The notes below the pieces were generated by a model, which had not been told where the DNA came from, ran no database searches, and worked only from the letters and a program-made list of their open reading frames with translations. The translations under genes and the position numbers were made by a program. Shown one piece after another: positions 1,980-42,010 of a DNA stretch of 64,000 nt (position 1 is the first letter of the stretch; each line of letters opens with the position of its first letter). Source of the stretch: Macromonas nakdongensis (GTDB lineage Bacteria; Pseudomonadota; Gammaproteobacteria; Burkholderiales; Burkholderiaceae_C); the NCBI RefSeq assembly GCF_002837145.1, contig NZ_NWMV01000019.1:1-64000 (forward strand), written 5' to 3'.

Positions 1980-2356
1980 AACACGCTGCCCGGCAACGGC
2001 TTTGCAGCAGTCGGCAATAGTGTGTTCGGCGGCAGCCACGGGCAATTCCTCAAAGTAGGGCTGAGAGCGGTTTTGCAGTGACCATTACCACCGCTAAAAA
2101 ATAACTCAAGTGATTGATTTTAATGGGATTTTTTGGCCCTGTCGCTGTGGCCAACCTGTGTCAAGCCGTCAACGACATGTGTATGGGGCATGCGACGCCT
2201 TATTTTGATAAATTTGTAACAATTCGTTGATTTGTGGTGGCCAGGTTCGAAAGGTTGCCCGCAAAATCCCGCATGGCGCCCACGCATGGCGCCGACAGAG
2301 CCATGGCTACCGTCGTGTGAGGCGTGGTCCACTGGCCTTCAATGGGCGGGAGGGGT
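1980..2356. other. Intergenic region between hipA and the SARP regulator gene
   Basis: 377 bases with no gene I can support. It includes an AT-rich block at about 2090-2235 (for example TTATTTTGATAAATTTG near 2200) in otherwise GC-rich DNA. This is the likely promoter area of the downstream regulator, but no clear -35/-10 pair can be assigned. A hairpin-like pair AGCGGT/ACCGCT near 2068-2095 is followed by A residues rather than T residues, so it is not a terminator for hipBA. Confidence 0.5.
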
Positions 2357-3397
2357 ATGTCGCGAAATCCCAGCAATGCGCAAGTTCAGATCGACGATCT
2401 GTTGGAGCGGGCGGTCGCACAGGCGGGTGTTCACGCCGAAGCGGCGCGGGGCTGTTTGCACGAGGTGTTCGCTGAGTTGGCCCGGGGTTCGGTGTGGCCG
2501 GTGCCTTCGATAGCCAAGCCGGTGCTGGCCAGGCTGTGTGCCGAGGCGCTGGATGCGGGCATCGAGCCGCCGGTGGTTCGGCGCTTCATCGCGCACTGTG
2601 AACTGGCGCCGGAGCCGGGTGCCTCGCTGAACTGGCCTTGGCCGGTGCGGGTACACACCCTGGGCCGGTTTGCGGTGTTTTGTGATGACAAGCCGCTGAC
2701 GTTCACGGGCAAGTCCCCGCGCAAGGCGCTGGAGCTGTTGCAGGCCCTGATCGCCCACGGCGGCCGCGAGGTGCGCACCACCGTGTTGATGCAAAGCCTG
2801 TGGCCCGAGGAGAGCAGCAGCAATCTGCGCAACCTGTTCGACAACACCTTGCACCGTTTGCGCAAGCTGTTGGGGCCGCAGGAGGTGCTGCACGTCCACA
2901 ACGCCAAGCTGACGCTCGACGCCAGCCGTTGTTGGGTGGATGCCTGGGCGTTCAACCGTCTGACTGCGCCGTGCGCTGCGGCACTGGTGGAGCCCGGCCA
3001 CGAGCGGGCCCCTGTGTCGGAGGCCGAGGCCCGCGCCGCCCTGCGCCTGTATTCGGGCCATTTTTTGCAGTCCGAATCGGAAGAGCCCTGGTCTTTGCCT
3101 TACCGAGACCGCTTGCGCAACCGCTTCCACCGCCTGGTCCGGGTCCTGGGTGAACACCTGGAGCAGGCCGGGGATTGGGAGGGCGCCGCCGAGATTTACG
3201 AGCGGGGATTGGAAGTCGACAATCTGGCGGAGGTGTTCTACCAGCACCTGATGGCTTGCCACCAGCGCATGGGCGAGCACGCCGAGGCCCTGCGGGTGTA
3301 CCGCCGGTGCCGGGAGTTGCTGTCCATCGTGCTGGGGGTGGCGCCTTCGCCCCGCACCGAAAGCCTGCGCCGCGTGTCCCTGTCGATGGCGCCTTGA
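2357..3397 (+). CDS. SARP/BTAD-family transcriptional regulator
   Basis: A 346-residue regulator. Residues 1-90 are an unassigned N-terminal part. Residues about 97-190 form an OmpR/PhoB-like winged helix (RVHTLGRFAVFCDD, then SPRKALELLQALI and the LWPE and LHRLRKLLG elements). Residues about 200-340 form a bacterial transcriptional activator (BTAD) domain of helical TPR-like repeats (YERGLEVDNLAEVFYQHLM). Start 2357 is chosen because a strong GGGAGGGG ribosome binding site precedes it; a GTG at 2324 and an ATG at 2342 are in frame but less well placed. SARP proteins activate promoters by binding 11-bp-spaced direct repeats just upstream of the -10 box. Two such sites lie in this locus, before the giant gene and before the sapC-like gene, making this the likely activator of both. 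No receiver or ATPase domain is attached, so the input signal is unknown. Confidence 0.85.
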   Translation: MSRNPSNAQVQIDDLLERAVAQAGVHAEAARGCLHEVFAELARGSVWPVPSIAKPVLARLCAEALDAGIEPPVVRRFIAHCELAPEPGASLNWPWPVRVHTLGRFAVFCDDKPLTFTGKSPRKALELLQALIAHGGREVRTTVLMQSLWPEESSSNLRNLFDNTLHRLRKLLGPQEVLHVHNAKLTLDASRCWVDAWAFNRLTAPCAAALVEPGHERAPVSEAEARAALRLYSGHFLQSESEEPWSLPYRDRLRNRFHRLVRVLGEHLEQAGDWEGAAEIYERGLEVDNLAEVFYQHLMACHQRMGEHAEALRVYRRCRELLSIVLGVAPSPRTESLRRVSLSMAP

Positions 3398-3445: not shown

Positions 3446-3485
3446 CATTTCTACGTGATCGCTAGGTGGCACCTGCCTAGCATGG
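3446..3485 (+). promoter_or_regulatory. SARP-type promoter of the giant gene
   Basis: Direct repeats CTACGTG (3451-3457) and CTAGGTG (3462-3468) lie exactly 11 bp apart. Nine bases later comes a -10-like TAGCAT (3478-3483), and no recognisable -35 hexamer is present. The 40-bp block matches the block before the sapC-like gene at 30 of 40 positions. Transcription would start near 3490, giving a leader of about 70 bases before the ATG at 3560. Repeat spacing and position fit SARP activators; the adjacent regulator gene supports this. Functional assignment is inference. Confidence 0.7.
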
Positions 3486-33500: not shown

Positions 33501-34075
33501 CCGGTGCCGAACTGGGCCGCTACGAAGACGGTGTCATCACCATCGACGTGAACGCTGCCGGCCACGGCTGGTTCGTGGACCACACCCCGGGCGACGACCG
33601 TGAGTTCGGCACCGATGGCCAGGCCACCGAAGGCGCGGCGACCACGCGCATGGACCTGCTCTCGGTGCTGGCGCACGAGTTGGGCCACGGTCTGGGGCTG
33701 GACCACGAGGACGGTGGCTGGATGGACGACACCTTGGCCACCGGCTCGCGCACCATGCTGCTGGACGACGGCGCACCGGCCCCGGCAGCGGGGCAGCCGG
33801 CCATGGCCGCGGCCGTGTCCACCTTCGGCGCCCCGGTGTTCGACATGCCCCTGCCGCCCACGCCGGCTCCGGCGGCCGAGGCGGTGGGGCTGCGCATCCT
33901 GTGGGACCAGCAAGCGCCCTCGGCGCACGTGGTGCCGCCGGCCGCCCGGGCCGCCTGGGTCAGCGACTTTGTGCAACACCTGGGGCAGAGCGAGTCTGCT
34001 CGCAACCCCAACGCCAGCTTGCGGGTGCAGTTGCCCGTGACGGTGGAGGCCGCACCGTCGGCCCGCGTGCTCTGA
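3560..34075 (+). CDS. Giant LEPR-XLL / RTX repeat surface protein with C-terminal metzincin motif
   Basis: A single 30.5-kb open frame encoding 10,171 residues, around 1 MDa. Start ATG 3560 has GGAG six bases upstream; a GTG at 3500 is in frame but lies inside the proposed leader. Domains in order: Arg-rich cytoplasmic-type N-terminus without a Sec signal; LEPR-XLL segment VEPRLLLSAD (79-88); four to five modules of about 390 residues (about 650-2380); 53-63-residue repeats (about 2730-3540) interrupted by a TSP3-like calcium segment (3137-3154); HGxxxGD and EGFxxGQ repeat families (about 4210-8370); dockerin-like EF-hand loops (about 6882 and 6961); Calx-beta-like segments (about 7157-7550); RTX GGxGxD repeats (about 8490-9440); two concanavalin-like domains (about 9555-9910); metzincin motif HELGHGLGLDH (10039-10049). 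It is Gly/Ala/Asp/Thr rich, as expected for an extracellular calcium-stabilised adhesin or surface filament. Its promoter resembles that of the secretion cluster downstream. Confidence 0.9.
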   Translation: MENQGPSRRNGGPRTPSLLPLGFQPSQLWSKLQDTYSQWRDKRETAVHGADLTGQPPARVRARMKARARHGQGFGLEAVEPRLLLSADLSYTAVADSDLTLRFDDGTEMVQLVDSSSSFVYDDIALASIVGDDGRIDLTLDSDGHGVTLLLDTSLTDAVGVSGIKIVGGAGNDDLTVTGEGAAGKALTVEAEQITAMGSLSADSLTFTALAQSDGSVPLATDYLGLYLVADANASIDLSGATLDIVGAVVLTATTDVDVVANPATFGNGALALTGLAVLGSAEIKMHNTTLSAASLDADTVMDVTYQLATSGQTPTNDGEDAAVTIVYLETVSSVVVSGNASLQVDGAVGLNASTLANVAATADGGGADFGATMALTIVNLSTQAVVTGSAAITGRNNNDDPDSVTVAATLGSSMTSTATSTTGGATDGGGSNRSQQRLQDPNGDADTSDQVSTGDGGLNFAGALALSFYDSDTEARVDTGGNLRSANALAVHALATETVSTSANGTNTGDTADGVGVAVAFAKTDSHTRAVVGGSSLIHAAGGVDVDAELAGGDSFTVSAVSGAGDASELGVAGAVAIHVLDTAATAEVTGTTVLDAGTNLTVSASNTTHASTTAAPHDTGVVSENGIGASLAVAAIDNSSTARLANGATLSGAGDVTLSATGHYTLDTTATAGGGGSSVGIGGAFAITVASNTTQAYVGTGDLLDISGSLEALVQHHGATTTTADGDALGGDTAVGAAIALSFVDDVAEAYLARDVTAGGRVNLHVDADASVSTTATASAGGADAEEDSDNNGDSTDDTADKQLGKQVDLANDTSGKSNSTGQSASDGGGGSVGVAAALALNVSSASARALILGGSTVTAGDEVVLSSALDADAEAVADGAATTGEASDTAVGVAVAINVSNVENTALLGAGAFVASQGFGASATMKGGDTARHKTKAKATSGASAGETGVAGSFALNVSNQGSASGTRAAIDGSVEAGNGDVRIEAENLTENTVEATAAVTGDAATGVGVSLGIHVVDNVTEAQILGALTGGDDVTLVATGEHDTTTTASGGANPTAPDATGVGGSFAITVADNRTLAQLDGGDALDVGGSLTASAHHHGHTLTHADGDAAGSTAVGAAIALSFVDDVAEASTLRSITADGAVGFAAHADGSAEALATASVAGASSDEDEGGGTANEQLTKQKSTANDKAGPGAATTPTEASADDGSGGSVGVAAALALNVSSASAEALLSGPSVVVTADGGAVTLASSNNMDALASADGSPVELDPGADPGDPAATAVGAAVAINVADMRNVALVTSGVTVSGVGFSATATMKDVEGDELHRFGAMAKSGAAAGETGVAGSFALNIVNPASGSVTEAAVKTGASVDANFGSVTITAGNLSESEACAEASATAGKTGVGASIAIHVIDHVTEAQIESSATLSEGQNVTLSATGQHDNTTYAQGGAGGENATTAVGGSFALTIADQNTLASVGTGAGLDITGSFSATATHHGFTETEAEGKAEAADTAVGAAIALSFVDDSAKATVSRSITADGSVALTASTDGVTLAQATASAKGADKDEESAKAGGDSADQQVGKQTQVANSKNAGADKSAGANASANDGSGGSVGVGAAVALNIAKSTAEASILGGGTHIVADADDDATGGVTLLSSNNMDARAIADGQAVGGTVTTAVGIAVAVNVADMRNSAAVATGVEVDGHGFSARALMKTVNGDSTHRYEAKATSGAGGADTETGVAGSFALNIVNPAAASVTEAAIRSGADVDARAGDVVIRAESTTDSKVRAEAATTGGSDATGVGASIAVHVVDNDVRARIESGGVLRGGDDLTLSATGHHTTTTYAAGGASGGGTSVGGSFAITVADGNHTDASVGTSGTALDITGNYSASATHTGVTNTTAKGNATGNTAIGAAIALNIVDDQGAATLNRNLTADGDVLLQAVVGGASFAKAESSAAGAKKDDGGNSKADGQISQQKSLADQKNGAGSNVNTGPSASTNTSGTGGGEQQVSVAASLGLNVAEATARTAVLAGRTVIAGDGVGAGDVALRSSNHMDARADADGSAKATSSDGSTAVGVAVAINVAELVNEALVGNGATVRADGLALEATMRPTGNASHDFEATTQSGSSGAETGVAGSVSINVAITSTRAVFGDGGTATAVLGGNGDLSLQAISHHSDTVLATSSATSAGSDSLGAGVSVGVNVGIHDTIAETTHGSSVTTGLGQTLDDVTVKADSSNTVKTDSKAGAGGSTAVGGAISVTYSENLTRAQLGSSAGVLAVDGDIDILAFHVSSLASTADGEAAGGETGVGASVAVNIGTHDTSALLARSISGTPDTLDVQTRSLLSSTIDTTASAKGGSSSQGKSDEQTTNQGNLARSKAGAAADKAPTQSGEGAMNSANTQTSGQGGQTVNSSGSGGSSGTSVAATVGVNFIGGIAQAQIADGVSVAASGAVRVETEHRITAHVDSDSTATNTSSDTGVAAAVAVNVVVVDAIAAIGNNADVQGSGVAVRAHMPGSDQNSYRVRALSGAVGKDTAVGGSIGVNYVDTLAQASVGDDSTVTGTSGDVRVEATNRNGLQNVTGGAAFSTNGTGVGIAVAVNVANGLEARATVGDRSTLDAGGEVSVKADLTLLPQKLDVSELGPLSGVDIDLTSFAAGLAGSGGSNVAVGGSASVNVFFITTEAQVGHDSLLRGDAGVTVSAMDELRVVSAAGSIGASMNGGGVGLGFDVGVITRDTLATVGARSDLESDDGEITVTADSSDIVTSIAATVGLSSGSAGVAGSVGVLVLLTQTQATLASGNALDRSRLVAGGDVTVSAEGTLDAFMLAGSAAFSASSAGVGVATIVLVHEDDVVASIGDYAQVDTNGANGLSVSATSSEAVATIAAAGAGSASSAAVAGSVAVTVLTETTRATIGADGVITAEVDGGTLNPGLDVYAESHSELLTIAGSLAVSGGSAGVGAGVNVATLTKTTEALVGAGTEVDADGNVVVEADSREDVGSFSVAAGVGSSAGITVTADVFVLTPTTRAAIGANADIDTDASVLVQSNDETELDLIVGGVAIGGSAGVGVAAGVVVVDKTNEALIGNNAQVTGRGADVVQARVGLASESYVADAPSDYETQSAAGARPTKDQLEGGAPSGMNQFNDLDQDGADDGADQKDPGLSGRREYNATKSAVRGVAVSANSEGDIATVAVSVGGGGSVGVAVGAAVNVVDVKTTAAIGSDARINQNGTGAAGQSVAVHAASDFNHVGVGAGVAIAGSGAGAPGVDVSVLDIETSASIGDRALVDAADDVLVSAHASEKVLIVSAGLAFSGTVSLAGGVSVLSLEDTTTASIGADAVVEAGGDVAVVANDDTRLTVISGAVAVGVGGAGAAGSVGVTSLLKDTTASIGDRAQIDARGQGVSGIDDVLDGSVGSSGLGSGDGRHGVVVQATSSEAVTHIAVAGGVGLYAGIAGGVTVTLIDSDTIARIGDSAQVNQGSANYLNPGNTVGTDQGVYVNAGNRTDITSFAGALGVGFVGLAGAVDFGSIQNDAVAQVGNNAKVKARGDVEVHAVADRSLTGYTFSGAGGVVGLGASVSVWSVGENFSAQYEDSEKGSQDSANALEGEGGSSAVSDAGSQAEGGVSSLTNELGGFGAGANDKTADSRVQAGMQGINTRVTGRQFSQSDLTNGLNAAISDDRGTTASVGEGAEVRAGDDIAITANEHMEVDLLLGNLGVGLVGAGASVAVLNVSGQVNAKAHGKLRAEDSITVDANFQQDVNVLSVALQGGFVGLGASVVVVNDTSAVRTLVGDNGAGTAAALDSAQTVVLSAQADQDFQVSSTGVQVGAVAAGASFTKVTVGDTSDSTKEAKVAIADNAQIGQVDAIGSLTLSSQSTVDANADTFALAGGAIAATINFAFVEINTDTEVSMGHSVTVDATGALSLTNETSHRGETDVFALSVGLGVVGTSFADTRVNSTLNTSIGNSPDIQAASLTMRSRHNVTDSGRGAYATAEAAGGGLFSGQGAVPEARSNASATTRVGTGGNIALSGDLSVVGNVANYAKADTDVFSFGGAAIGVTQTVAQANGGATTEFGAKISAAQDVEVQAIGTSDARATSEAAAGGVLVGVSINDAKATASPTVSASILPNTSIDGVRHITVRAVGDGEADARVEGVAIGGLLGAGSSDSTATASPTVNALIGAGARISATGLVSVVALGGPQDGEGSGFIIRSASADDESLQVLGHGLSTGQVVEYLVSNGTTDQEIGGLDQFLPNAVVIEIPIVGDVVVNVHRQYGVINVTDDQGNVNGDRIYLGATFDTANVDSDTEIITFVAPHNFLAGDQVRYYPGDNQALANFGLQEGKLYFVQRIDDTRIRLVYGDYATQVERDAARARALNPDAYYKAFDALSSVNGGANTIAITGHGFETGDLVIYDAPDPITFATGQVDASVTYVDSQLKLVFQDNNTIVFLDDEGNLYEHGFTDNELVVYRAVDAGGDPAQASALTGLVNGETYRVRTLGDYAIQLVRSERIVLNDVDFFLDNGTQKFLRNDGGSFITDGFTATEDVSLYFDPLDALLGKWDITGVSSSALTVASSPNFQATRIADNSFTFTAQNGSDLATIVWSEGNFANEGFAALQTIDVTRGAVTTQYTIAAVSGNQISLVDGSVLAAGSGSAVIDRGNLSQIAFDQDAIAIGRPQDSVPDIDNPGAFVLRESNDTHTLIREKDLPLSGLQDQNSYYVEKINNDTIRLYHDAERTLVANIEPVSDPDGTRTLNSHRLAEFAVDLDAIEYITDGVQINALADTITFLNGGHSYSSGDTLRYRAGVGIAAASEGDDAGTLYYVRVLDASTIQLVDSLAKATNPTASLDTFTPADINDTTNVITQVGHGLSSGDAVTYIAPAPATVGMAGVSEVSDSITFATAHGFSSGDKVLYTVKDFVNPDPRANDPDHPDFTGLFNDGELTAIGGLVHNSVYRVKVVSPTSIQLKVNDVVTTDFWFVSDNGVQKLVRSDQKNWADNGFAATQVIQITGAPGYNGSYTIGAVSGDTLTLTGGPDVQNQRITDEFQYIRGANPGDKDQIVWIGGSGWAAEGFAVGQQIHVGAAGLNSTGSGEFYTIDAISGNTLTLTASQRLYSVASDLSSVTRGTVNATVDVPAVIQLARQYYDAPANTILDPDTHAFVRLQDVAIGGLTSNATYYVDVIDADHFRLKLSPSAAGTLNLAPRATDPSLPFANHFIGQLAVDLVANQATASVQQLRIDIAASFTYVDGTNPVHSLTGPEGVSLSELVPNAGDGITTAYAKGSGGGFVGSSANEAKVTSNPTVSAVVAAAQLTTSGSVVVGSLAETHTTAFAVNGTGGFVAVGSANADSDQYLQSTASIADNASVVALGNVTVEADVVARSASTSRSSAGGFVGTVYPNTDYAESGGIDQDTNDLKFAAVARIGQNAVVRAINGLARVDANASVSITGKSTGSGIGFGGDASADVQIDVASSKSEVVIGQNAILEGNQVLLSATMDKFYARVEADGRGAGFYGEGTAYAALYADIDLTIDLKAGAQVTGWEGVDFITRFDNVDTLTKTFSRSTGLFGYVDSTTRADIRLDSAVLGAGGALVTAGPRPRSGEVSGDPMGHPTGTGIPTGNEEHLAFYVSTDNGSISNEVRASTSKRSLALGGSSKSPNPDTVTDQIDFDSNVLILSGRSPELLVKELSIAEDGKILTAVEVTVNDSAGGGASAEGEGQNVDSDTIVVNDITNPGPGDVVFVSAAIAGAGGTWTFRETLSRVKITNRSDKDIVINRIDVTGGDQALVWFDPQATAVGGTPGAMSFNIVQDVSPTVIEILNLGPDADGDGSDVYLNGTINNPIGTTSIVNTVGSVYGTGNRDSNSLVRTNILKIDARDNVGTVTLGSESIPGYSADRVNVDIVDAAGLPQGANFRTNLVNSTTHQIVLGQSNPFVTGQLVQYVKTSGADITGLTSGGYYYTVVSDDGLSVGLAETLGGEVIEIGAAGSPTDTHTLTAKEQFTVDAGDNVGMDLRALQRMDGANYIVDIDRVSAGNDIDLLLQSSLNQTGGGLYGGILVKWDNEPGGETHYTFFDQNDGAQQPRDRGVYANSSSNIASTYDFRGRNPLSTPVKGAYELAGLQAGNNVKVVAVENANSTANRTVNVLGITELDVTGSQTGTGHITVLTNGWVALTEKTDDLRVESITSNFSDVLLYSPQRIIDATGDSNATSDVAGRNITMVAASSFVNPDASEVPGEVLDPTRTVGAGNPLGGIGRSDNFLEINVAKVDNATGVLRAYDMASAAQTQGIFIDEMSGNLYLHTVKTSDDVSLRTTGGSILDAKVLDDVDGDANVLAQSVDLDANGGSIGQVGNDVEIDSRRASTDHGDPLAQPPVSDYLPNLDDWLESDDDDVGLEATGGIYLTEVDDELRLVLAHSYSGNIRLTVREADGVEGDTSVDENLYLIDHGQARFAEDDTTASNAGGNQPDAQRNVPHGQIFAEQGSVELRVGDNVFTDENAEILAAQGIVIRGDHIDNDANFGTHMILRGRLIAGAVVTTLGSEGIGSPEGTATPSLASPLHLTQIFGNADEDFFQFGDPTGIEGGASQGDAGYIFIGSKTRVYGSADATVDPEVRDGDNLVTDPGDHGNDGEDSFSVFYLQDAATRTSPETAGVVAEHTLTLDGQAGSDSYFIHTTGSNGVDNRNYIINLLDHGHEDDGVDEAFIYGFDSDVNGLDGLGNKPGDDIFLLRAGQYIPGEPDADRPGYVAMLHGQVSTYEDVIVGNESSTEVQRINYDTGLNGRLVVEGRGGNDAFYSDDATVTTTLDGGEGFDTFQVGQIFGSNRNEADGNLLPEDVFANLVATTRGWLSAGATAPMVALGGSGNDEFRVYSNQSALRLEGDDDNDLFIVRAFALAATVDFDWNNDGKMNQADLDDGVAVLKALDEIWRDDETQTVVEVVAQLPPSLVGTFIPLADYKTALAAKLNALPLPVGSQSPFDVNRDLTINYVDLNLTQGNVSDDTIVLDEDGVATPQIGRGFSVAQAPDIRTGGGADEVRYNVNAPVSVDGGTGFDKLVILGTEFADDIVITKNGIYGAGLSVKYTTIEVVEVDGLEGDDEFFVQSTEFGVAYRVIGGLGSDTINVAGDVTEDIVTRELEGASGTVDHLVTSDDFLYNGIVIDGIDYNVPVTGEGLVVINEETGGATDGRTVVAERTDDQAGVFDFYTVRLAEALTGDQVVYVTVSASRSNQEERDGYDLNPDPLVDGEGDSIWLGQYDPSGLLSADGADVVRGDFQRTIYVDGVATKVANRAIVLRFDASNWDDEQSVFVYAPDDPRSEGDRVVVIQHSVISNDERYDAIDVRNVEATVIDNDTPGVQITEINPNNPAEVDGRTLVIEGNGTTELQDAFLVQLSRAPELGDTIVIRIDFGAGDDAAIALSDGGSGRFNASTRTISFDSTNWNDAVRVNVQALDDFVAEDPETAVLKFVLDNDVYNEDDELIYDGQNDDADGDYVIPNLRSGTGILDVEVIDNETEGAVVLESGGSTLVINDDPDEAGDQSQDDTYTIRLTRPVEDGKTVDVAILTDGLADVADILDGNGVSLSPTYQTIGAIRPSERFAGSIVFENVGGFGTLTRGTGADLGSFIEEGWQVGDQIRIGGAGVAYNGDYVVTAVTDDSITLSAALSVGTETEVQDTVSLSVLAPEGVWKGQVEVEENEYDEFLGVQVDRLFRTSATGDVQGWLAEGFLEGQRVRVFELDNNGERTGNHADFKIAIIRGDNDTKDDRLQFTLENGGALPGWLTGTLDVEVNRIAKIITFNSIESDPSAWHQQHTVVLEADPYFEVPTVREGVKAFPVSGHYLANLRGPLAVEGGPTGADRSLTNGVKLPGEADGFLIAIGTQAPESQQIDVLNIFNDTSKANGTGVMTQTTLTGFNMADELDFSELVYGVSQEDADTFGESLVVPGGISFGKVNFGAGGFDTNLQQSTIEVVNLMLGEGNDQLTINSTLQPAPFVQAQNVFTFQAAPYVAKPGAPEVGDGTIRRDGFDWKAQGFLVGQLIEIDDPAYAGMQWRVVAIEDAIEYFEADGVTPIINPDTGLPYRDPNDNSILVVENANGVDLPALTGEHKIIAIDRLVMLLGEEVDVAGSATGGTLTKSGSTWESEGFLEGHLVTLRSNGGDQQYRVLSFTEDGLGMVLEGLAMTSGTVTYNAIFVQGPHGGLTVTHGGGNRWIETNGSFDVGTTTQVNGSSTGAVSLTRTDGRSFTEDRYQVGQYLQLGDGPHTYRIAEIRNAQWVANDGDQPFAAWGTASMLVLVPTQGDPLATGDDVALHIHVTEALRTEVSEQVTVQLTDFNADPLIDDLHTTVTRSGGTWEAEGFYVGQVIYIEGYAGGFTITGFRDSGTTAVLGNAALSDCGCHGPTDLTIFGYDITRDGSKRVGGDHFIVNGGAGPDSPLVIYGDTSQDGVWYSGRPQDRLGLEFGEKPFDPFPQLPDEDNEDDEWIFPVANPYKLAGHDVIDASALFNNGATVGITAYGGAGNDFIIGSQNGDHLAGGSGDDTILGQLGTDHIYGDSGVNVNILTRALQITTVDNSPGPSVDKNIAKADSTFKPVASPVRDDLQAGRDTLDGNGSGNADVQNIVFGDHGEVVQAVEDPNLPPVLLQKIQTTELASIIAINSVELQNGGDDTVFGTDTDDILIGGAGHDMIDGRQGDDLIFGDNVRLTRMGGAYDNSLIDDIASLRFQTLYGSLLYSRTDRQAESMAGGYVPPGGTDVGITQYTSGVLLTDGIARAYRDPNGPQWWAEYKIDYADLHTFSMDQGDTGVGSFGNDYIAGGAGHDQIFGQLGHDVIQGDGSIASAVAATAHVGAARAGGDANDPIGALKVVASFDNPQTSTNGQNHDGQDYIEGGGGCDVIFGNLGQDDLVGGSSSFFSLTSADSRPDDDDIIFGGSGTQISRNNAKNADGSLSDTLAESSRHAEDADTIVGDNGNIVRIVGINGVDVNPRPDLSPLAQNYVTFNYDVYAGQKIVVRGVSLLDYTPGGPDFVPADFYLPTGEPGEVLPNDTMRKEFGLYARHDIGGHDEVHGETGDDTIYLGGGADIAFGDAEDDDIVGGWGADFISGGTGEDGVIGDDGRIFTSRNTALTNKAESLFGVEALLASDPDTRTSQGNVLNEFIYTPGQVQTETINIGGELKKSVDLTTYLLVPQGELGTSDPLTVQLDAPLFADDIIFGGLGDDFLHGGAGNDAISGAEALTVSYTVRFGDGVNTGQLEQQATPVAGLVRIDYTRPWNPGNILYFGDDTNPWNSPKPIVPRLGEFFLYDEYDPRRTILFHPDGTVWDENNPLPQGGQLTDLRQYFLNFAEDEGVKIGGYTQFNPNGTPVTTSWQLRESDGKDAIFGDLGNDWIVGGTGRDHLYGGWGNDLLNADDVMGGRNVFVDANGVRTYSKTYDTSKALNDVPDSHVAYEDRAFGGAGLDVLVGNTGGDRLIDWVGEFNSYIVPFAPFGIATVSRQVPPQLFDFLYAQAHSDGADITRTADTGESNGTDRYSNVNKLMGGVNSEIGLITQQDHGYWQDQTGGPTDPQPGNIPGGRRDVLRTSDFNDGTTGGFAPDSGTFSVSSGKLKASAANGSDQAVAVYYLDSYLPTYYEISAVITADKPTGTWKANAYVIFDYQSPTDFKYAGINISTNKIEMGYRDASGWHQVVQSNKPVQLKPGTNYQMLVAVNGTNVTVSVAGVNWFTYTFAPRIVDGEAVPLNQGMVGFALDGAKGTVDNFTVQVLPPDLSLDYVNTFTGSTSPQIFEPATGTWSLVSDRYNGTAATGSTALSLADLGQPLSVDAYLELEAKVRTGAIGGIAFDVYGNNDFKFVALDDANDRVIVGHVSPEDGLRIDKTYARTLSAGTDYALKLVFNGASASIYVGGAFVGTHSFNSALVDGQFGLMVQNGSASFDDFRVRTNDPAFEGYVPGASLVSAQGEAEHAKGQRVTQEQAEALLQEALRRLSLTEDPALLAALADVTVRIDDLAGAELGRYEDGVITIDVNAAGHGWFVDHTPGDDREFGTDGQATEGAATTRMDLLSVLAHELGHGLGLDHEDGGWMDDTLATGSRTMLLDDGAPAPAAGQPAMAAAVSTFGAPVFDMPLPPTPAPAAEAVGLRILWDQQAPSAHVVPPAARAAWVSDFVQHLGQSESARNPNASLRVQLPVTVEAAPSARVL
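3797..3826 (+). other. LEPR-XLL segment coding region
   Basis: Encodes VEPRLLLSAD (residues 79-88) and flanks. LEPR-XLL is a short named signature near the N-terminus of very long repetitive bacterial proteins. Here it follows about 78 residues rich in Arg and Lys and precedes the first beta-rich repeat. It is not hydrophobic enough for a membrane helix, and its function is not established; a sorting or processing signal is plausible. Confidence 0.75.
5500..10700 (+). repeat. Tandem modules of about 1.17 kb within the giant gene
   Basis: Landmarks recur at near-constant spacing. An IALSFVDD-type segment occurs near 5787, 6931, 8103 and 9289 (IALNIVDD in the last). A GGSVGVAAALALNV-type segment occurs near 6055, 7196, 8383 and 9571. 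Between them sits a charged, Gln/Lys-containing linker (KQLGKQVDLAND, EQLTKQKSTAND, QQVGKQTQVANS, GQISQQKSLADQ, EQTTNQGNLARS) near 5969, 7098, 8281, 9455 and 10640. Spacing is about 1130-1190 bases, roughly 390 residues per module. The pattern suggests a duplicated beta-solenoid unit with a protruding hydrophilic loop. Confidence 0.8.
11740..14170 (+). repeat. Array of 53-63-residue repeats within the giant gene
   Basis: At least a dozen copies of a unit starting with a motif like A-x-[IV]-G-x-x-A-x-[VI] (ATVGARSDL, ASIGDYAQV, ATIGADGVI, AAIGANADI, ALIGNNAQV, AAIGSDARI, ASIGDRALV, ASIGADAVV, ASIGDRAQI, ARIGDSAQV, AQVGNNAKV). Most are spaced 159-189 bases apart, with two longer intervals near the end of the array. 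Each unit alternates short beta strands rich in Val/Ala/Gly. The array is interrupted near 12830-13060 by a longer acidic segment that contains a TSP3-like calcium motif. Confidence 0.75.
16180..21400 (+). repeat. HGxxxGD-type repeats within the giant gene
   Basis: Recurring motif of the form H-G/N-[LF]-x-[ST/A]-G-[DQ]-x-V-x-Y, for example HGLSTGQVVEY, HNFLAGDQVRYY, HGFETGDLVIYD, HSYSSGDTLRYR, HGLSSGDAVTYI and HGFSSGDKVLYT, with a late relative FVTGQLVQYV near 21320. Each is followed by a strand pair ending in a pattern like YYVxxIxxxxIxL. The regular strand pattern suggests small beta-barrel or Ig-like units. No enzymatic motif is visible. Confidence 0.65.
29035..31890 (+). repeat. RTX calcium-binding repeat block of the giant gene
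   Basis: Many GGxGxDxUx nonapeptides in several clusters, for example GGAGNDFII, GGSGDDTIL, GGAGHDMID, GGAGHDQIF, GGGADIAFG, GGTGEDGVI, GGLGDDFLH, GGAGNDAIS and GGWGNDLLN. They are separated by longer non-repeat inserts. RTX repeats fold into a parallel beta roll on binding calcium after export, so the C-terminal fifth of the protein should fold only outside the cell. This is the usual hallmark of non-Sec type I substrates, yet no type I ABC exporter is present in the window. Confidence 0.9.
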
Positions 34076-34143: not shown

Positions 34144-34183
34144 CATTTCTAGGTCATATCTACGTTGCGCCCTCTTAGCATGG
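34144..34183 (+). promoter_or_regulatory. SARP-type promoter of the secretion cluster
   Basis: Direct repeats CTAGGTC (34149-34155) and CTACGTT (34160-34166) are 11 bp apart, with a 9-base gap before TAGCAT (34176-34181). Geometry is identical to the giant-gene promoter and 30 of 40 positions match. It follows the giant-gene terminator immediately. The leader to the ATG at 34253 would be about 65 bases. Likely driven by the SARP/BTAD regulator encoded at 2357-3397 (inference). Confidence 0.7.
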
Positions 34184-34252: not shown

Positions 34253-35056
34253 ATGAGCACGCAAATGTTGATCTATGAAACCGCATTTCCCGTGTCGGCC
34301 CGTCGCCACGCCAATTGGTGTGTGGAGGCCGGGGGCGACTACGCCTTCAGTCGCAAGGTGAATTCGGTGCCCCTGATGGCGGTGGAATTCCCACCCGCGG
34401 CCAGCGAGTACGCGATTGTTTTCGCTGGCGCTGGCGAGAGCATCATGCCGGTCGTCATCCTGGGCATGCGCGGCAACGAAAATGTTTACCTCGATGCCGA
34501 GGGCGGCTGGAAGGGCAAATACATCCCCGCCTTCATCCGCCGCTACCCCTTCATTTTTTCCAGCGACAGCGACGGCAAGACCCTGACGCTGTGCATCGAT
34601 GAAGCCTTCAAAGGCTTCAATCAGGCCGGGCGGGGCGAACGCCTGTTCAACGAGGAGGGCCAGCCGACCCCCTACGTCGACAACGTCCTCAAATTCCTGC
34701 AGAACTACCAGGTGCAGTTCCAGCGCACCCAGGCCTTCTGCCGCAAGCTCAAGGAATTGGATCTGCTCGAGTCCATGCAAGCTTCTGTCACCCTGCCTGG
34801 AGGGGAGAAACTCGCCCTCACCGGGTTCATGGCCGTCGATCGCAAGCGCCTCAAGGCCTTGTCGGGCGAGGCCCTGAGCGACTTGGTGCGCACCGACGAG
34901 ATGGAGTTGATCTACCTCCACCTGGAGTCCATCCGCAACTTTTCCAGCGTGCGCGAACGGTTGGTGGTCATCCCAGGGGGCAACGCCGACACGGCGCCTG
35001 CGGCGAGTGCGGAGGTGGCCGCTGCAAAAAAGTCCGGGCAGCAGGCCGCGGCCTGA
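34253..35056 (+). CDS. SapC-family protein
   Basis: A 267-residue protein of the SapC family (named after the surface-layer export cluster of Campylobacter fetus). Typical features are the N-terminal Y-E-T-A-F-P-V segment, ANWCVEAGGDYAFSRKVNSVPL, the central GGWKGKYIPAFIRRYPFIF and the acidic LNxEGxPT-like region. The C-terminal 25 residues are Ala/Lys rich and probably disordered. No signal peptide or membrane helix is visible, so it should be cytoplasmic. Start ATG 34253 follows an AGGAAAGG ribosome binding site; the frame is open further upstream but without a better start. The biochemical role of SapC is unknown; its position as first gene of an export cluster suggests a chaperone or substrate-handling function. 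It has its own SARP-type promoter. The next gene starts 85 bases later, and a GC-rich hairpin in the gap may modulate read-through. Confidence 0.85.
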   Translation: MSTQMLIYETAFPVSARRHANWCVEAGGDYAFSRKVNSVPLMAVEFPPAASEYAIVFAGAGESIMPVVILGMRGNENVYLDAEGGWKGKYIPAFIRRYPFIFSSDSDGKTLTLCIDEAFKGFNQAGRGERLFNEEGQPTPYVDNVLKFLQNYQVQFQRTQAFCRKLKELDLLESMQASVTLPGGEKLALTGFMAVDRKRLKALSGEALSDLVRTDEMELIYLHLESIRNFSSVRERLVVIPGGNADTAPAASAEVAAAKKSGQQAAA

Positions 35057-35141
35057 ACGGCCACGCCCAACCCGTGCGCCGCGGACCCGCCTGAGGCGGC
35101 GGGCGCGACGCAGCTCCAGGCTTTTTTGCGCCTAGCTGCCG

Positions 35142-37019
35142 ATGTCAAACACCGCCTCCATCCACTCCCTGGTCCAAGAGGACCGCAGCCGGGCCGAGTC
35201 CGCGGCTTGGGCGCATTTCACCGCGCCCACCCACGCCGGGGACTTCACCAACAGCTGGCTGGGCATCCTCTGCGCGCAAATCCACCTGGCGCAAGGGGCC
35301 TTGCTCTTGTTGCGTGCCACGGATGGGGCGGACGATGGCAGCTACCTGGCCGCCGCGGTGTGGCCCGATGCGTCCAGGCCTATGCAGTACCTGGTGCCGG
35401 CCGCCACCAAAGCCCTGCGGGACCAGGCGGGCACCGTGGTGGCCCAGGACGGTGTTTCGCCGCCGAACCGGGGGCAGGCGGTGCACATCGCGTACCCGAT
35501 CGAGGTGTCGGGCGTGCTATTCGGCGCGGTGGTGGTGCACCTGTCCCCTTGTGCCGATGCCGAACTGCAGCAGGCCCTGCGCCTGGTCCACTGGGGCACC
35601 GCCTGGCTGGTGGACCACTTCCGCCAACAGCAGCAGGCCTTGCAGCAACAGCGTTTCGACCGGTTGACCCTCGTCGCCGATGCCCTGGCCACCGCCATGG
35701 AGGCACCGTTGCTGGCGCATTCGGCCACCGCCGTGGTCAACATGCTGGCCTCCCGTCTGCAGTGCGACCGGGTCAGCCTCGGGCTGGACCGGGACGGCGA
35801 GGCCGAAGTGCTCGTCATTTCCCACACCGCCACCTTCGACCGCCGCACCAACCTTGTTCGCCTGCTGGGCGATGCCATGGACGAGGTGCTGGACCTCGAC
35901 CTGACCATGGTCTACCCGCCCCCCGATGGCGACGAACTCGGCCTGCTGGCCCATGCCGCGCTGGCGCGTGAGGCGCAGGTCGCGGCCATTTGCTCCGTGC
36001 CGTTGGTGAGCGAGGGGCAAGCGCTGGGGGTTGTCACGTTCGAGCGCACCGCCGGCCCCCCCTTCGATGCCGCCGCCACCGACGTGTGCCGGGCGCTGGG
36101 GTTGGCCCTCGGGCCGGTGGTGGCGCTCAAACAGTCCAGCGAAAGAAGCGTGGTCCAACGCCTGATCGAGCGTGGGCAGGAGGCCCAGCGCGTTTTGTTT
36201 GGGCCGCGCCATCCGGGGGCCAAGCTGATCGCGCTGTCCTTGTGCCTGGTATTGCTGGTGTTCAGCGTGGTGTCGGGGGACTACCGGGTGTCCGCCCGCA
36301 CGGTGGTGGAGGGTGCGGTGCAGCGTGCCGCCGTGGCGCCTTTCAACGGCTACGTCGTGGAAAGCCTGGTCCGCGCCGGCGACACGGTCCGCCGCGGGCA
36401 GGTGCTGGCCCGGCTGGACGACAAAGACTTGCTGCTGGAGCAGACCCGCTGGTCTGCCGAGCTGCAACAACTGCAGGGCAAGCAGCGCCAGGCCATGGCG
36501 GTGCAGGACCGCGCGGCCTGGATGCAGGCCCAGGCCCAGGCCCAGCAGGCCCGGGCCCAGCTCTCCCTGGTCCAGGGACGGCTGGAGCGGGCCAGCCTGA
36601 CTGCACCGTTCGATGGCATCGTCGTCTCCGGCGATCTCAGCCAGTTGCTGGGCACCCCGGTCGAGCAGGGCAAGGTCTTGTTCGAGGTGGCGCCGCTGGA
36701 CGCCTACCGCGTCATCCTGGAGGTGGACGAGCGCGACATCGCCGACCTGAGTCCCGGGCAACGCGGCGATATGGTGCTCTCCGGTTTGCCTGGGCAGGCC
36801 CTGCCGTTCACCGTCAAGCAGATCACCCCGGTCACTTCGACACAGGACGGACGCAACCTTTTTCGGGTGGAGGCCCAGGTGGACGCCGCTTCCGACCGCT
36901 TGCGTCCCGGCATGGAGGGGGTGGGCAAGGTCGGTGTCGGCGAACGGCGCCTGATCTGGATCTGGACCCACGGCCTGATGGACTGGCTGCGCCTGGCCTT
37001 CTGGAACTGGATGCCATGA
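35142..37019 (+). CDS. GAF domain - HlyD membrane fusion protein
   Basis: A 625-residue protein. Residues about 15-170 form a first sensor-like region, and about 185-345 a clear GAF domain (from RFDRLTLVADALATAM to FDAAATDVCRALGLALGPVV). One membrane helix follows at about 360-380 (LIALSLCLVLLVFSVVSG). A HlyD-type biotinyl-lipoyl/barrel-sandwich and coiled-coil section covers about 390-520 (VAPFNGYVVESLVRAGDTVRRGQ, APFDGIVVSGDL), ending in the typical LRPGMEGVGKV and an amphipathic WIWTHGLMDWLRLAFWNW tail. Topology would place GAF in the cytoplasm and the HlyD arm in the periplasm. Membrane fusion proteins bridge inner and outer membrane export components; a GAF sensor on one is unusual and suggests ligand control of export. 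The stop overlaps the next start (ATGA, 37016-37019), so the two are coupled. Confidence 0.87.
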   Translation: MSNTASIHSLVQEDRSRAESAAWAHFTAPTHAGDFTNSWLGILCAQIHLAQGALLLLRATDGADDGSYLAAAVWPDASRPMQYLVPAATKALRDQAGTVVAQDGVSPPNRGQAVHIAYPIEVSGVLFGAVVVHLSPCADAELQQALRLVHWGTAWLVDHFRQQQQALQQQRFDRLTLVADALATAMEAPLLAHSATAVVNMLASRLQCDRVSLGLDRDGEAEVLVISHTATFDRRTNLVRLLGDAMDEVLDLDLTMVYPPPDGDELGLLAHAALAREAQVAAICSVPLVSEGQALGVVTFERTAGPPFDAAATDVCRALGLALGPVVALKQSSERSVVQRLIERGQEAQRVLFGPRHPGAKLIALSLCLVLLVFSVVSGDYRVSARTVVEGAVQRAAVAPFNGYVVESLVRAGDTVRRGQVLARLDDKDLLLEQTRWSAELQQLQGKQRQAMAVQDRAAWMQAQAQAQQARAQLSLVQGRLERASLTAPFDGIVVSGDLSQLLGTPVEQGKVLFEVAPLDAYRVILEVDERDIADLSPGQRGDMVLSGLPGQALPFTVKQITPVTSTQDGRNLFRVEAQVDAASDRLRPGMEGVGKVGVGERRLIWIWTHGLMDWLRLAFWNWMP

Positions 37020-39169
37020 GCCACCAGGCCCCGGTCACGAGCAATGCCTGGCACCGGGTGGCCGGCTTGAAGCCCCGCCTGCGTTCGCAAGCCCGTTTGT
37101 ACCGGCACCGCTACCGCGACGAGGTCTGGTACCTGCTGCAAGACCCCGCCACGGGTCGCGTCCACCGCTTCACCCCGGCGGCCCGCCTGCTGATCGCGGC
37201 CATGGACGGGCGCCGCACCGTCGACCAGTTGTGGGAGCTAGCCAACCGCCATCTGGACGATGAGGCCCCCACCCAGGACGAGGTGATTCAACTCCTGGGC
37301 CAATTGCACGCGGCCGATCTGCTGCAAAGCAACGCCACGCCCGACGCCGCCGAGTTGTTCCAGCGCGGTGAGCGCGAGAGCAAAACCCGGCGTCGCCGGT
37401 CTTGGAGCAACCCCATGGCCTTGCGCCTGCCGCTGTGGGACCCCGATGTCTTCTTGGAGCGCACCCGGGCCCTGGCCGGTCCGCTCTGGGGGCGTTGGGG
37501 GGCCCTGTTGTGGGTGGCGGTGGTGTTGCCGGCCCTGCTCCTGTTGCCGGCGCATTGGACCGCGCTCACCCACAATTTCAGCGACCGTGTGCTCGCCGTG
37601 GACAACCTCCTGCTGTTGTGGCTGGTGTTTCCCGCCCTCAAGGCCCTCCACGAACTGGGGCATGCCTACGCCACCAAGGTGGGGGGCGGCGAGGTGCACG
37701 ACATGGGGCTCATGTTCCTGGTGCTGATGCCCGTTCCCTATGTGGAAGCCTCGGCGGCCACGGTGTTCCGGTCCAAGACCCAGCGGGCCGTGGTGGGGGC
37801 CGCCGGCATGCTGGTGGAATTGTTCGTGGCCGCCCTGGCGTTTTACCTCTGGCTCCTGGTCGAACCGGGCGTGTGGCGGGCCATCCTGTTCAACGTGATG
37901 CTGGTGGCGGGCGTGTCCACCCTGGTCTTCAACGGCAATCCCTTGTTGCGCTACGACGCTTACTACATCCTGGTGGACCTGATCGAGATGCCCAACCTGG
38001 CCCAGCGTTCCCTGCGGTATTGGGCCTACGTGTTCGAGCGCCATGTGTTGCGCCTGTCCGATGTCGAACCGCCGGTGCATGCCGCTGGCGAGCGGGTTTG
38101 GCTGCTCTTTTACGGTGTGGCGTCCACGGTGTACCGGATCGTCATCACCGTCGCGATCGCGTTGTTCATCGCGGGCGAATTTTTCTTCATTGGGGTGTTG
38201 CTGGCCTTCTGGGCCGTGTTCAGCATGGCTGGGTTGCCGCTGTTCAAGGGCCTGCGCTACCTGTTCACCAGCCCCCGTCTGGGGGGACAGCGCCGGCACG
38301 GCCTGACCCTGGTGGGGGGTGTGCTGGCCACCTTTTTGCTGTTCGTGTTGCTGGTGCCCGTGCCGTTCCGCTCTCAGGCCGAAGGCGTCGTCTGGCTGCC
38401 CGACGAGGCGGTGGTCCGTGCCGGCGGCAACGGTTTCGTCGAAACCTTGCTCGCCGAGCCCGGTGCGCGCGTGTCGGCGGGCGCGCCTTTGTTGCGTTTG
38501 CATGACCCGGCGCTGGACGCCGAGGTGGCCCTGGCCGAGGCCCGTCTGGCAGAAGCCGAGGCCAATTACCACGCCCAGTTCGCGATCGACCCTGGCCAGG
38601 CGGCGGTGCTGCGCGAGCGCGTCTGGGCCGAACAGGCGGCCCTGGCCCGGGAGCGGGAGCGCGCCGCGGCCATGCTCGTGCTGTCCCGCGGGCAGGGCAC
38701 TTTTCACCTGCCGCGGGCCCAGGATGCCCCCGGGCGCTACTACCGCAAGGGCGAAATCGTGGGCTACGTGACCGACCGCCCGCCCGACGTGGCTCGGGTC
38801 GTTGTCACCCAGGCCGAGGTCGACGTGGTGCGCCAAGCCACCCGCCATGTCGAGGTGCGGCTCGCGCATGGCCTGGCCCAGGTCATCGAGGGCCGCCTGG
38901 TGCGCGAGGTGCCCGCCGGCGATCAGCGCCTGCCCAGTCCAGCCTTGTCGGTGACGGGGGGAGGGCGCATCACCGTCGACCCGAAGGACCCCCAGGGCAC
39001 CAAGACCCTGGAGCGCCTGTTCCAGTTCGACGTGCAGCTCGACCACCCGCAACGCCTTTACCTCTTTGGCCAGCGTGTGCACGTCCGTTTTGAGCACGAT
39101 TGGGAGCCGCTGGCCGTCCAGTGGTTCCGCACGGTCCGGCGGGTCTTCCTGTCGCATTTCCATGTCTAG
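37016..39169 (+). CDS. PqqD-like - M50 site-2 protease - HlyD fusion
   Basis: A 717-residue polytopic protein. Residues about 25-110 resemble the PqqD peptide-binding fold (YLLQDPATGRVHRFTPAARLL). Several membrane helices follow from about 155, with the zinc motif HELGH (212-216) in a helix and the third-ligand motif NPLLRYDAYY with Asp at 314, both characteristic of M50 site-2 proteases. After a helix near 430-452 the C-terminal part is a HlyD-like periplasmic arm (VRAGGNGFVETLLAEPGARVSAG, then a coiled coil, ending LFGQRVHVRFEHDWEPL). M50 enzymes cut substrates in or near the membrane; fused PqqD and HlyD parts suggest a peptide-recognising, export-coupled protease. I infer that it acts on the giant LEPR-XLL protein. 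The start ATG overlaps the upstream stop by 4 bases. The zinc ligands are intact. Confidence 0.88.
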   Translation: MSHQAPVTSNAWHRVAGLKPRLRSQARLYRHRYRDEVWYLLQDPATGRVHRFTPAARLLIAAMDGRRTVDQLWELANRHLDDEAPTQDEVIQLLGQLHAADLLQSNATPDAAELFQRGERESKTRRRRSWSNPMALRLPLWDPDVFLERTRALAGPLWGRWGALLWVAVVLPALLLLPAHWTALTHNFSDRVLAVDNLLLLWLVFPALKALHELGHAYATKVGGGEVHDMGLMFLVLMPVPYVEASAATVFRSKTQRAVVGAAGMLVELFVAALAFYLWLLVEPGVWRAILFNVMLVAGVSTLVFNGNPLLRYDAYYILVDLIEMPNLAQRSLRYWAYVFERHVLRLSDVEPPVHAAGERVWLLFYGVASTVYRIVITVAIALFIAGEFFFIGVLLAFWAVFSMAGLPLFKGLRYLFTSPRLGGQRRHGLTLVGGVLATFLLFVLLVPVPFRSQAEGVVWLPDEAVVRAGGNGFVETLLAEPGARVSAGAPLLRLHDPALDAEVALAEARLAEAEANYHAQFAIDPGQAAVLRERVWAEQAALARERERAAAMLVLSRGQGTFHLPRAQDAPGRYYRKGEIVGYVTDRPPDVARVVVTQAEVDVVRQATRHVEVRLAHGLAQVIEGRLVREVPAGDQRLPSPALSVTGGGRITVDPKDPQGTKTLERLFQFDVQLDHPQRLYLFGQRVHVRFEHDWEPLAVQWFRTVRRVFLSHFHV

Positions 39170-41171
39170 AGCCTTGTCCCATTCCAGCCGGGTGGATCGG
39201 GTCCTGCGCCCCTTCCCCGAACGGGCCGAGGCCGTGCCCGGCTGGCACGACCGCCTGGCCCAGTCTCTCTATGCCCACGCCGTGGCCCCGTGGCCGGCCC
39301 TGGTGCGCCAGGGCTCGGGGTGCTACCGCGACATCCTGCACACGGTGCGCGAGCACGAAGCCGGGCTGCACAGCCTCAGCGATGCCGAATTGCAGCAACG
39401 CCTGCAAGATCTGCGGCCCCAACTGCGCCGCCAGGGCCATGCGCTGCAGCCCGTGGGGGCCTGCTTCGCCGTGTTGCGGGAGGCCTCGCACCGCCTCTTG
39501 GGGCGCCGGCATTTCGACACCCAGCTGATGGGGGCCTGGGCCTTGTTGCAGGGGCGGTTGGTGGAGATGGCCACCGGCGAGGGCAAGACCCTCACCGCGG
39601 CGCTGGCGGCCTGCACCGCGGCGCTGGCCGGCCAGCCGGTGCACGTCGTCACCGTCAACGACTACCTGGCCCACCGCGATGCCGAGGAAATGGCCCCGCT
39701 CTACCGTTTCGCCGGCCTCAGCGTGGGTTGCGTGGTGCAGGGCATGTCGCCCCAGGCCCGCCGCGAAGCCTACGCCCAGCCACTGACCTACTGCACCAAC
39801 AAGGAGCTGGCCTTCGATTACCTGCGCGACCGCGTCGCCCTGGGCGATCGGGAGGGCAGCCTGCACCTGGCCCTGGAAAAGATCGGTGGCGCTGCCCAGC
39901 AGCGGTCACTGGTGCTGCGCGGTCTGCATTTCGCCATCGTGGACGAGGCCGACAGCGTGTTCATCGACGAGGCCCGCACGCCCCTGATCCTGTCGGCCAG
40001 CGGCCCGCAGGGTGAAACCGCCGACAACTGCCGACGTGCGCTCGAATTGGCCGAACTGCTGGAGCTCCACGAGGATTTCCGGCTGGATGCCCGCACCCGC
40101 CAGGTTCGGCTGTGTCCCCAGGCCATCGACAAGGTCGACGCTTTCGCCGAACCGCTGGGCGGGGTGTGGACCTCCCGGCGCGGCCGGGAGGAGCTGGTGC
40201 GCCAAGCCTTGAGTGCCCTCCACCTGTTTCACCGCGACGAGCATTACGTCGTGGCCGACGGCAAGGTGCAGATCGTGGACGAATCGACGGGGCGCATCCT
40301 GCCCGACCGGAGTTGGGAGCGTGGCCTGCACCAGATGATCGAAACCAAGGAGGGTTGCGAGCCCACCAGCGAACGCAAGACCCTGGCGCGCATCACCTAC
40401 CAGCGTCTGTTCCAGCGCTACCTGTTGCTCAGTGGCATGAGCGGAACTGCCCGGGAGGTGGCCCCCGAAATTCGGACCGTGTACGGCCTGGACGTGGCCG
40501 TCATCCCCTTGCACCGGCCTTTGGCCCGCAGGCACGAAGCCCCGCGTCTGTTTGCCACCCCGGCCGACAAGTGGCAGGCCGTGGCCGATGCGGCCGCCGG
40601 CCTGGCACAGCAACAGGGCCGGCCCGTCCTCATCGGCACGCGTTCGGTCAAGGCCTCGGAAACCATCAGCGCGGTGCTGACGGCGCGCGGTCTGCCGCAT
40701 GCCTTGCTCAACGCCAAACAAGACCAGTTCGAGGCCGCCGTGATCGCCCTGGCTGGGCAGGCCGGGCGCATCACCGTCGCCACCAACATGGCCGGCCGCG
40801 GCACCGACATCCGCCTGAGCCCCGACACCTTGTCGCCTGGCGGCCTGCACGTCATCTTGACGGAGTACCACGAATCCGCGCGCATCGACCGCCAGTTGTA
40901 TGGCCGTTGCGGCCGGCAGGGCGACCCCGGCAGTTGTTCGGTCTTCGTGTCACTGGAAGATGAAATTTTTTCCCTCCATACACCCTGGGCCCGCGCTTGG
41001 GTGGACACTTGGCTGCGGCAGGGGCGTGCCTTGCCCGCCTGGGCCATTGACGGCCTGCGACGGCTGGCGCAATGGCAGGCGGAACGCAAAAATGTCGGCA
41101 TCCGCCGCCAGAACCTGAAGGTGGATCGGCAGCTCGACCAAGTGCTTTCGTTTTCCGGGAGACAACCATGA
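39162..41171 (+). CDS. Short SecA-like preprotein translocase ATPase
   Basis: A 669-residue SecA paralogue; canonical SecA has about 840-930 residues. Walker A MATGEGKT (136-143), NDYLAHRDAE, YCTNKELAFDYLRD, DEADS (261-265) with IDEARTPLILS, VDESTGR (372-378), LSGMSGTA, ATNMAGRGTDI and motif VI GRCGRQGDPG (581-590) are all present, so the motor core should hydrolyse ATP. Only about 79 residues follow motif VI, where normal SecA has several hundred. The helical wing, most of the scaffold, the two-helix finger and the zinc tail are missing. The segment between the DEAD box and VDEsTGR is also short (about 111 residues), implying a reduced preprotein cross-linking domain. Start ATG 39162 overlaps the upstream stop by 8 bases; the frame is open back to 39066. 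Context suggests a dedicated motor for the giant protein, not the housekeeping SecA. Confidence 0.88.
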   Translation: MSRALSHSSRVDRVLRPFPERAEAVPGWHDRLAQSLYAHAVAPWPALVRQGSGCYRDILHTVREHEAGLHSLSDAELQQRLQDLRPQLRRQGHALQPVGACFAVLREASHRLLGRRHFDTQLMGAWALLQGRLVEMATGEGKTLTAALAACTAALAGQPVHVVTVNDYLAHRDAEEMAPLYRFAGLSVGCVVQGMSPQARREAYAQPLTYCTNKELAFDYLRDRVALGDREGSLHLALEKIGGAAQQRSLVLRGLHFAIVDEADSVFIDEARTPLILSASGPQGETADNCRRALELAELLELHEDFRLDARTRQVRLCPQAIDKVDAFAEPLGGVWTSRRGREELVRQALSALHLFHRDEHYVVADGKVQIVDESTGRILPDRSWERGLHQMIETKEGCEPTSERKTLARITYQRLFQRYLLLSGMSGTAREVAPEIRTVYGLDVAVIPLHRPLARRHEAPRLFATPADKWQAVADAAAGLAQQQGRPVLIGTRSVKASETISAVLTARGLPHALLNAKQDQFEAAVIALAGQAGRITVATNMAGRGTDIRLSPDTLSPGGLHVILTEYHESARIDRQLYGRCGRQGDPGSCSVFVSLEDEIFSLHTPWARAWVDTWLRQGRALPAWAIDGLRRLAQWQAERKNVGIRRQNLKVDRQLDQVLSFSGRQP

Positions 41172-42010
41172 ACGTGAACCGCTGTTTTCTCGCCGGTCTG
41201 ACCGTGCTGGCCTGGCCGGGCGGGGTGGGGGCGGCCCCTTTCGAGTGCTTGCTGGAGCCGGCGCAAACCGTCGAAATCCGCAGCGCGGTCGAGGGGCTGG
41301 TGCGCCGCATCCACGTCCAGCGTGGGGACGATGTGCGCGCCGGCCAGGTGCTCGTCGAATTGGATGCCTCGGTCGAGCGTTCGTCCGCGGCTGTCGCCCA
41401 ATACCGTGCGCAGGCCGAGGGCCGCATTGCCGCTTCCCGAAATCGCATGCAGTACGCCCAGCGCAAGACGCAGCGCTCCAACGAACTGCACCAGCAGAGT
41501 TTCATTTCTGCCCAGGCCCGGGACGAAGCCGAAACCGAGCACAACCTGGCCGAATCCGAACTGAAAGAGGCGATGGAGAACCGGGAGTTGGCCCGCTTGG
41601 AGTACCAGCGCGCCGTCGACCAGTTGAACCAGAAGACCTTGCGCAGCCCTTTCAACGGCATCGTCGTGGACCGCATGCTCAACCCGGGTGACCTGGCCGA
41701 GGCCGGCAATGGCCGCAAACCCATCCTCAAGCTGGCGCAGATCCACCCGTTGCGGGTTGAGGCCGTGTTGCCCTTGTCCACCTTTGGCAAATTGCGTCCA
41801 GGCATGGTCGGGCAGGTGACCCCGGAAGGTGGGGCGCCCCAGAAAGCCACGATCAAGGTGGTGGACCGGGTGCTCGACGCGGCCAGTGGCACCTACGGCG
41901 TGCGTCTGGAATTGCCCAATCCCCAAGGGCAGTTGCCGGGCGGCATCCGCTGCCAGGTGGAATTCTCCGAGGTGGGGGGCGGGGGTCCGGTCGCCGCGCG
42001 CGTGCGTTGA
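41168..42010 (+). CDS. Periplasmic adaptor of the HlyD / RND efflux type
   Basis: A 280-residue adaptor. It has a signal-peptide-like N-terminus (CFLAGLTVLAWPGGVGA, with likely cleavage near residue 22), a barrel-sandwich half-motif IRSAVEGLVRRIHVQRGDDVRAGQ, a coiled coil over about residues 80-165 (alternating Ala/Glu/Gln/Arg), the second half-motif LRSPFNGIVVDRML, and a beta-barrel ending near LPGGIRCQVEF. Such adaptors connect inner-membrane machines with a TolC-type outer-membrane channel. No TolC-like gene is in the window. The start overlaps the SecA-like stop by 4 bases (ATGA), making this the last gene of the coupled cluster. With it, the cluster encodes three separate HlyD-type arms, which suggests a composite periplasmic conduit. 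Confidence in the family is high; the partner channel is unknown. Confidence 0.87.
   Translation: MNVNRCFLAGLTVLAWPGGVGAAPFECLLEPAQTVEIRSAVEGLVRRIHVQRGDDVRAGQVLVELDASVERSSAAVAQYRAQAEGRIAASRNRMQYAQRKTQRSNELHQQSFISAQARDEAETEHNLAESELKEAMENRELARLEYQRAVDQLNQKTLRSPFNGIVVDRMLNPGDLAEAGNGRKPILKLAQIHPLRVEAVLPLSTFGKLRPGMVGQVTPEGGAPQKATIKVVDRVLDAASGTYGVRLELPNPQGQLPGGIRCQVEFSEVGGGGPVAARVR

Follow-up and report, generated by a model that had tools for sequence, protein, structure and literature searches.

Does the similarity of two non-coding blocks, one in front of a giant gene and the other in front of an export-like gene cluster, reflect one regulator shared by cargo and exporter, as the original prediction held? 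The question concerns a 64,000-nucleotide stretch of DNA from Macromonas nakdongensis (here called the window). Comparison with related genomes supported the claim and brought out a candidate, a SARP-type gene at 2324-3397 that was absent from that prediction. The promoter elements in the window are the following.

3447 to 3468, plus strand: predicted activator box 1, tandem 11-mers ATTTCTACGTG / ATCGCTAGGTG
3478 to 3483, plus strand: -10-like TAGCAT of the giant-gene promoter
34145 to 34166, plus strand: predicted activator box 2, tandem 11-mers ATTTCTAGGTC / ATATCTACGTT
34176 to 34181, plus strand: -10-like TAGCAT of the SapC-cluster promoter, from the site alignment

A recount of positions 3446-3485 against 34144-34183 gave 30 identical bases out of 40 in an ungapped comparison, exactly as predicted. 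Both blocks lie wholly inside intergenic DNA (162 and 177 bp), and the predicted distances, counted from the end of TAGCAT to the A of the start codon, 77 bases at the giant gene and 72 at sapC, were reproduced. The blocks had been called nearly identical, which overstates an identity of 75%. Their likeness itself was confirmed as real and far beyond chance: in 1000 dinucleotide shuffles of the two intergenic regions the best 40-bp match had a mean of 21.7 (sd 1.15) and a maximum of 27, and beyond both blocks the identity of the flanks falls to background. The pattern CTASGT-N5-CTASGT-N10-TAGCAT, with up to three mismatches, matched twice in the window versus 0.01 matches expected. Its core, CTASGT-N5-CTASGT, occurred in the 3.06-Mb genome at these two places only, and not at many unrelated genes. 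A relaxed whole-genome search gave one additional match with two mismatches on another contig, which was at control level and was rejected as a third site. No leader RNA turned up when the window was scanned with Rfam.

The twofold CTA(C/G)GT described earlier was retained and refined into a tandem unit. Read from the DNA itself, each block has the 11-mer ATNNCTANGTN twice in tandem (22 bp), then about 10 nt and then TAGCAT, and the 11-bp unit places the CTASGT repeats in helical phase. The 11-bp tandem repeats were present at all 13 sites found in this and other genomes. Both AT pairs, both CTA triplets and both G's are invariant in 12 aligned sites, as are positions 1, 2 and 6 of the -10-like element, which reads TANNNT in 12/12 and takes the form TAGCAT in 8/12. 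The distance from the 3' repeat to this element is 9-10 nt in the 12 sites; the site in genome G083 (L040, 3332-3380) deviates by 11 bp, its -10-like TAGAAT lying one helical turn farther from the repeats, and it looks as if a third, degenerate repeat had been inserted there. If TAGCAT is the -10 element (-12 to -7), the repeats extend from about -43 to -22 and the -35 position is occupied by GTNAT, a poor match to TTGACA. Two subtypes of the box were distinguished, with giant genes mostly preceded by CTANGTNATCGCTAGGT and SapC genes mostly by CTAGGTCATTTCTACGT. Further matches to CTANGNNATNNCTANG in four relatives (L153, L157, L159 and L168) lacked both the upstream AT and the TAnnnT, and were set aside as background.

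The genes behind the two promoters were assigned as follows.

3560 to 34075, plus strand: giant LEPR-XLL protein gene, 10,171 aa (NF012209), with RTX-like repeats and a matrixin-like HELGHGLGLDH near the C-terminus
34253 to 35056, plus strand: SapC-family protein, 267 aa (PF07277, 1.5e-72)
35142 to 37019, plus strand: GAF and HlyD-type membrane-fusion protein, 625 aa (domain searches)
37019 to 39169, plus strand: fusion of PqqD-like, M50-like intramembrane metalloprotease (daptide HExxH-type) and HlyD parts, about 715 aa
39169 to 41171, plus strand: SecA-like ATPase with DEAD, preprotein-binding and P-loop domains, about 667 aa, start codon tentative
41168 to 42010, plus strand: HlyD-type membrane-fusion protein, last gene of the conserved cluster (domain searches)

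The giant protein scored 29.5 bits against the LEPR-XLL model NF012209 (motif near the N-terminus), for which the curated cut-off is 17. The HELGHGLGLDH motif (window 33550-33730; Pfam matrixin, 1.2e-5) follows the RTX-like repeats and belongs to a protease-like domain that ends the 10,171-aa protein. In four other genomes a relative of the SapC-family protein (61-79% identity) is encoded downstream of the same box. The cluster at 34253-42010, with its HlyD-type adaptors, SecA-like ATPase and PqqD/M50 fusion, is export-like and could not be matched to any named type. The HlyD-type adaptors and RTX-like cargo brought type I secretion into consideration, and it was rejected because it takes an ABC transporter together with an HlyD adaptor and TolC; neither an ABC transporter nor TolC was found within the conserved five-gene cluster, where the ATPase is SecA-like. 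A literature search for SapC, SecA, HlyD and a giant protein together found nothing. From the domains and the gene linkage we infer that the cluster exports the giant protein.

Directly upstream of block 1 lies the candidate regulator.

2324 to 3397, plus strand: SARP-type transcriptional activator (Pfam, NCBIfam, AlphaFold2), 357 aa, predicted to bind the boxes

SARP-type regulators run antibiotic genes in Streptomyces. The 2324-3397 protein has an N-terminal helical extension, an OmpR-like winged helix at about 108-205 and a BTAD/TPR region at about 206-355, which is the winged helix followed by BTAD of the family. Pfam detected BTAD (1.9e-21) and Trans_reg_C (2e-5; 25 bits, just under the cut-off of 26.2), and the NCBIfam AfsR model matched partially. 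The AlphaFold2 model (pLDDT 87) had chains of EmbR and AfsR as its six best PDB matches, with E about 1e-9. According to a cryo-EM study (PMC10936776), the direct repeats of SARP target promoters are spaced by 11 or 22 bp and the 3' repeat is separated from the -10 by 8 bp; the afs box extends over part of the -35. The repeats in the window have the 11-bp spacing, and their distance from the -10-like element and their position over the -35 correspond approximately. R92 of AfsR, which contacts T-27, corresponds to R178 of the 2324-3397 protein in a phmmer alignment read by hand; R178 is invariant in 27 regulator relatives, and T at -27 in 12 sites.

The system resembles the actinobacterial SARP family (AfsR/afsS, ActII-ORF4, EmbR) in its winged-helix and BTAD architecture and fold, in two direct repeats one helical turn apart over the -35 and shortly before the -10, and in a regulator gene that adjoins its targets. 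It differs in that the regulator is proteobacterial and has an N-terminal helical extension of about 100 aa and no NOD or FHA domain, the repeat ATNNCTANGTN is different and its distance to the -10 is 1-2 bp longer, and, where the actinobacterial SARPs control antibiotic or cell-wall genes, the predicted targets here are a giant protein and an export-like cluster. The proposed SARP-type control is of a known kind, and the repeat and the kind of target are new. Another point of comparison is HilA of Salmonella, which binds paired direct repeats near -35. HilA is an OmpR/ToxR-like DNA-binding regulator that activates the SPI-1 secretion-apparatus genes (PMC5122947); it is likewise proteobacterial, with an OmpR-like DNA-binding domain and secretion-apparatus genes as targets, but it serves a different secretion system and acts inside a multi-regulator cascade. 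For the regulator gene 2324-3397 itself no preceding box was found, which leaves no evidence of autoregulation. A HipB/HipA-like toxin-antitoxin pair is located at 229-1979, just upstream of the regulator.

A search of 151 family genomes for the regulator turned up one close relative each in G045 and G083 and two in G115, and every one of them adjoins a LEPR-XLL giant gene with the box in between. A scan of GTDB species genomes yielded 74 regulator relatives, 5 with at least 50% identity (a Nevskia MAG, two Comamonadaceae, a Rhodocyclaceae MAG and Cognatazoarcus halotolerans) and 69 with at most 47%. The box was located 57-105 bp downstream of the matched region in all five of the former and near none of the 69 latter. 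Leaving out G045 and G083, which had already been seen, the comparison was 3/3 versus 0/69 (p = 1.7e-5). Boxes were present at both promoters in five genomes, namely the window genome, G045, G115, Nevskia and the Rhodocyclaceae MAG. Genome-wide searches located the partner box in front of sapC for G045, G115 and Nevskia; in the Rhodocyclaceae MAG the regulator precedes sapC, and the LEPR-XLL gene on another contig is still boxed. With at most one mismatch, the pattern CTANGNNATNNCTASGN11TAGNATG gave 7 matches in 3 of 401 family genomes and none in the controls, and all seven precede LEPR-XLL or SapC genes; a pattern search of 399 genomes of the order gave 5 matches, all at loci already known. 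Judged by these genome comparisons, the box follows the regulator and not the giant gene as such. Genome G115 has two loci (L038 and L039) with the regulator and a LEPR-XLL gene, with open frames of 10,327 and 12,249 aa; both are boxed, and there is one close exporter.

Taken together, it is very probable that the adjacent, dedicated SARP-type protein 2324-3397 activates both the LEPR-XLL giant gene and the SapC/HlyD/SecA-like cluster via the two boxes. A pair of its molecules, side by side, would bind the two tandem 11-bp repeats and cover the poor -35, and the bound SARP would recruit RNA polymerase to the TAGCAT -10 at both promoters. The 30.5-kb giant gene and the SapC/HlyD/PqqD-M50/SecA-like/HlyD cluster behind it would then be switched on simultaneously. 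In our interpretation of its purpose, the second promoter would free exporter synthesis from RNA polymerase having to cross the 30-kb cargo gene. We also lean, with less assurance, towards a broader reading in which a proteobacterial SARP subfamily with a new repeat is the dedicated one-regulon switch of SecA-like/HlyD/PqqD-protease export of LEPR-XLL proteins of >8,000 residues, and in which the second, matched promoter was gained to spare the exporter the 30-kb read-through. The SARP mode of action would thereby be extended to secretion-type gene clusters in Proteobacteria.

It is unlikely that the two promoters form one regulon under an unlinked regulator or an alternative sigma factor while the adjacent SARP controls something else. 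The conserved TAnnnT -10-like element and GTNAT at -35 would fit such a binder, as in sigma-factor promoters, but the box occurs only where a SARP relative of at least 50% identity is encoded, including the Rhodocyclaceae MAG with its SARP before sapC. The 11-bp head-to-tail repeat is also more in keeping with a pair of SARP molecules than with a sigma factor, and the AT/CTA/G conservation recurs in both 11-mers. More improbable still is that the SARP-like protein binds the boxes and represses, or acts differently at the two promoters. Neither sequence nor conservation separates activation from repression, and the boxes overlap the -35, where repressors also bind; against this, AfsR, the structurally characterised relative, is an activator (PMC10936776), and the poor -35 is as in activator-dependent promoters. 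We infer that the 2324-3397 protein is the box binder, and an activator rather than a repressor.

A remnant of a recent duplication of promoter DNA without shared regulation is hardly credible. There are two copies in one locus within 31 kb, and the second promoter may indeed have been copied from the first, but the kept block is surrounded by unrelated flanks and cross-genus conservation largely refutes this explanation. The paired boxes occur as two subtypes in Comamonadaceae, Rhodocyclaceae and Nevskia, which indicates an old pair that has been maintained.

LEPR-XLL giant proteins are frequent in the family, where they were found in 55/401 genomes, and are almost unstudied: of 5.39 million open papers two mention them, once each. 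Through the shared, lineage-conserved box the giant gene and the SapC/SecA-like cluster are joined as one functional unit, an independent indication that the cluster works for the giant protein. With the regulator named and an exact candidate binding site at hand, there is also a way to switch the system on in a laboratory strain. In the same 401 genomes the PqqD/M50 gene had a match in 55/55 genomes with LEPR-XLL proteins versus 35/346 others, and at E <= 1e-80 in 48/55 versus 13/346 (p about 3e-42). Cargo and exporter were paired on one contig in 44 cases, 2-67 kb apart. G115, Cognatazoarcus and Nevskia all have the genes in the order sapC, GAF/HlyD, PqqD/M50/HlyD, SecA-like, HlyD, and for G045 and the Rhodocyclaceae MAG the retrieved DNA shows this order up to where it ends. 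The co-occurrence and the linked pairs indicate that the partnership is general, while the SARP and the box belong to one branch: modules elsewhere have the same cargo and the same five-gene order, but most differ from the window in being without this regulator and box.

At six related cargo/exporter loci without the SARP the two upstream regions share 22-26 of 40 bases, which is chance level, and no shared block was found. At several of these SARP-less loci sapC starts a few tens of bases past the preceding stop codon, in an operon-like manner and with no separate promoter block. Cognatazoarcus has a sapC without a box, about 66 bp after the giant gene. In G083, where the regulator is about 51% identical, the search of the genome yielded a single box and that of the contig no close exporter, so the coupling is not universal. 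Other regulators are encoded upstream at the LEPR-XLL loci L066 and L078, a LuxR-type regulator in G201 and a receiver-domain protein in G104, which suggests that lineage-specific regulators serve the same LEPR-XLL module.
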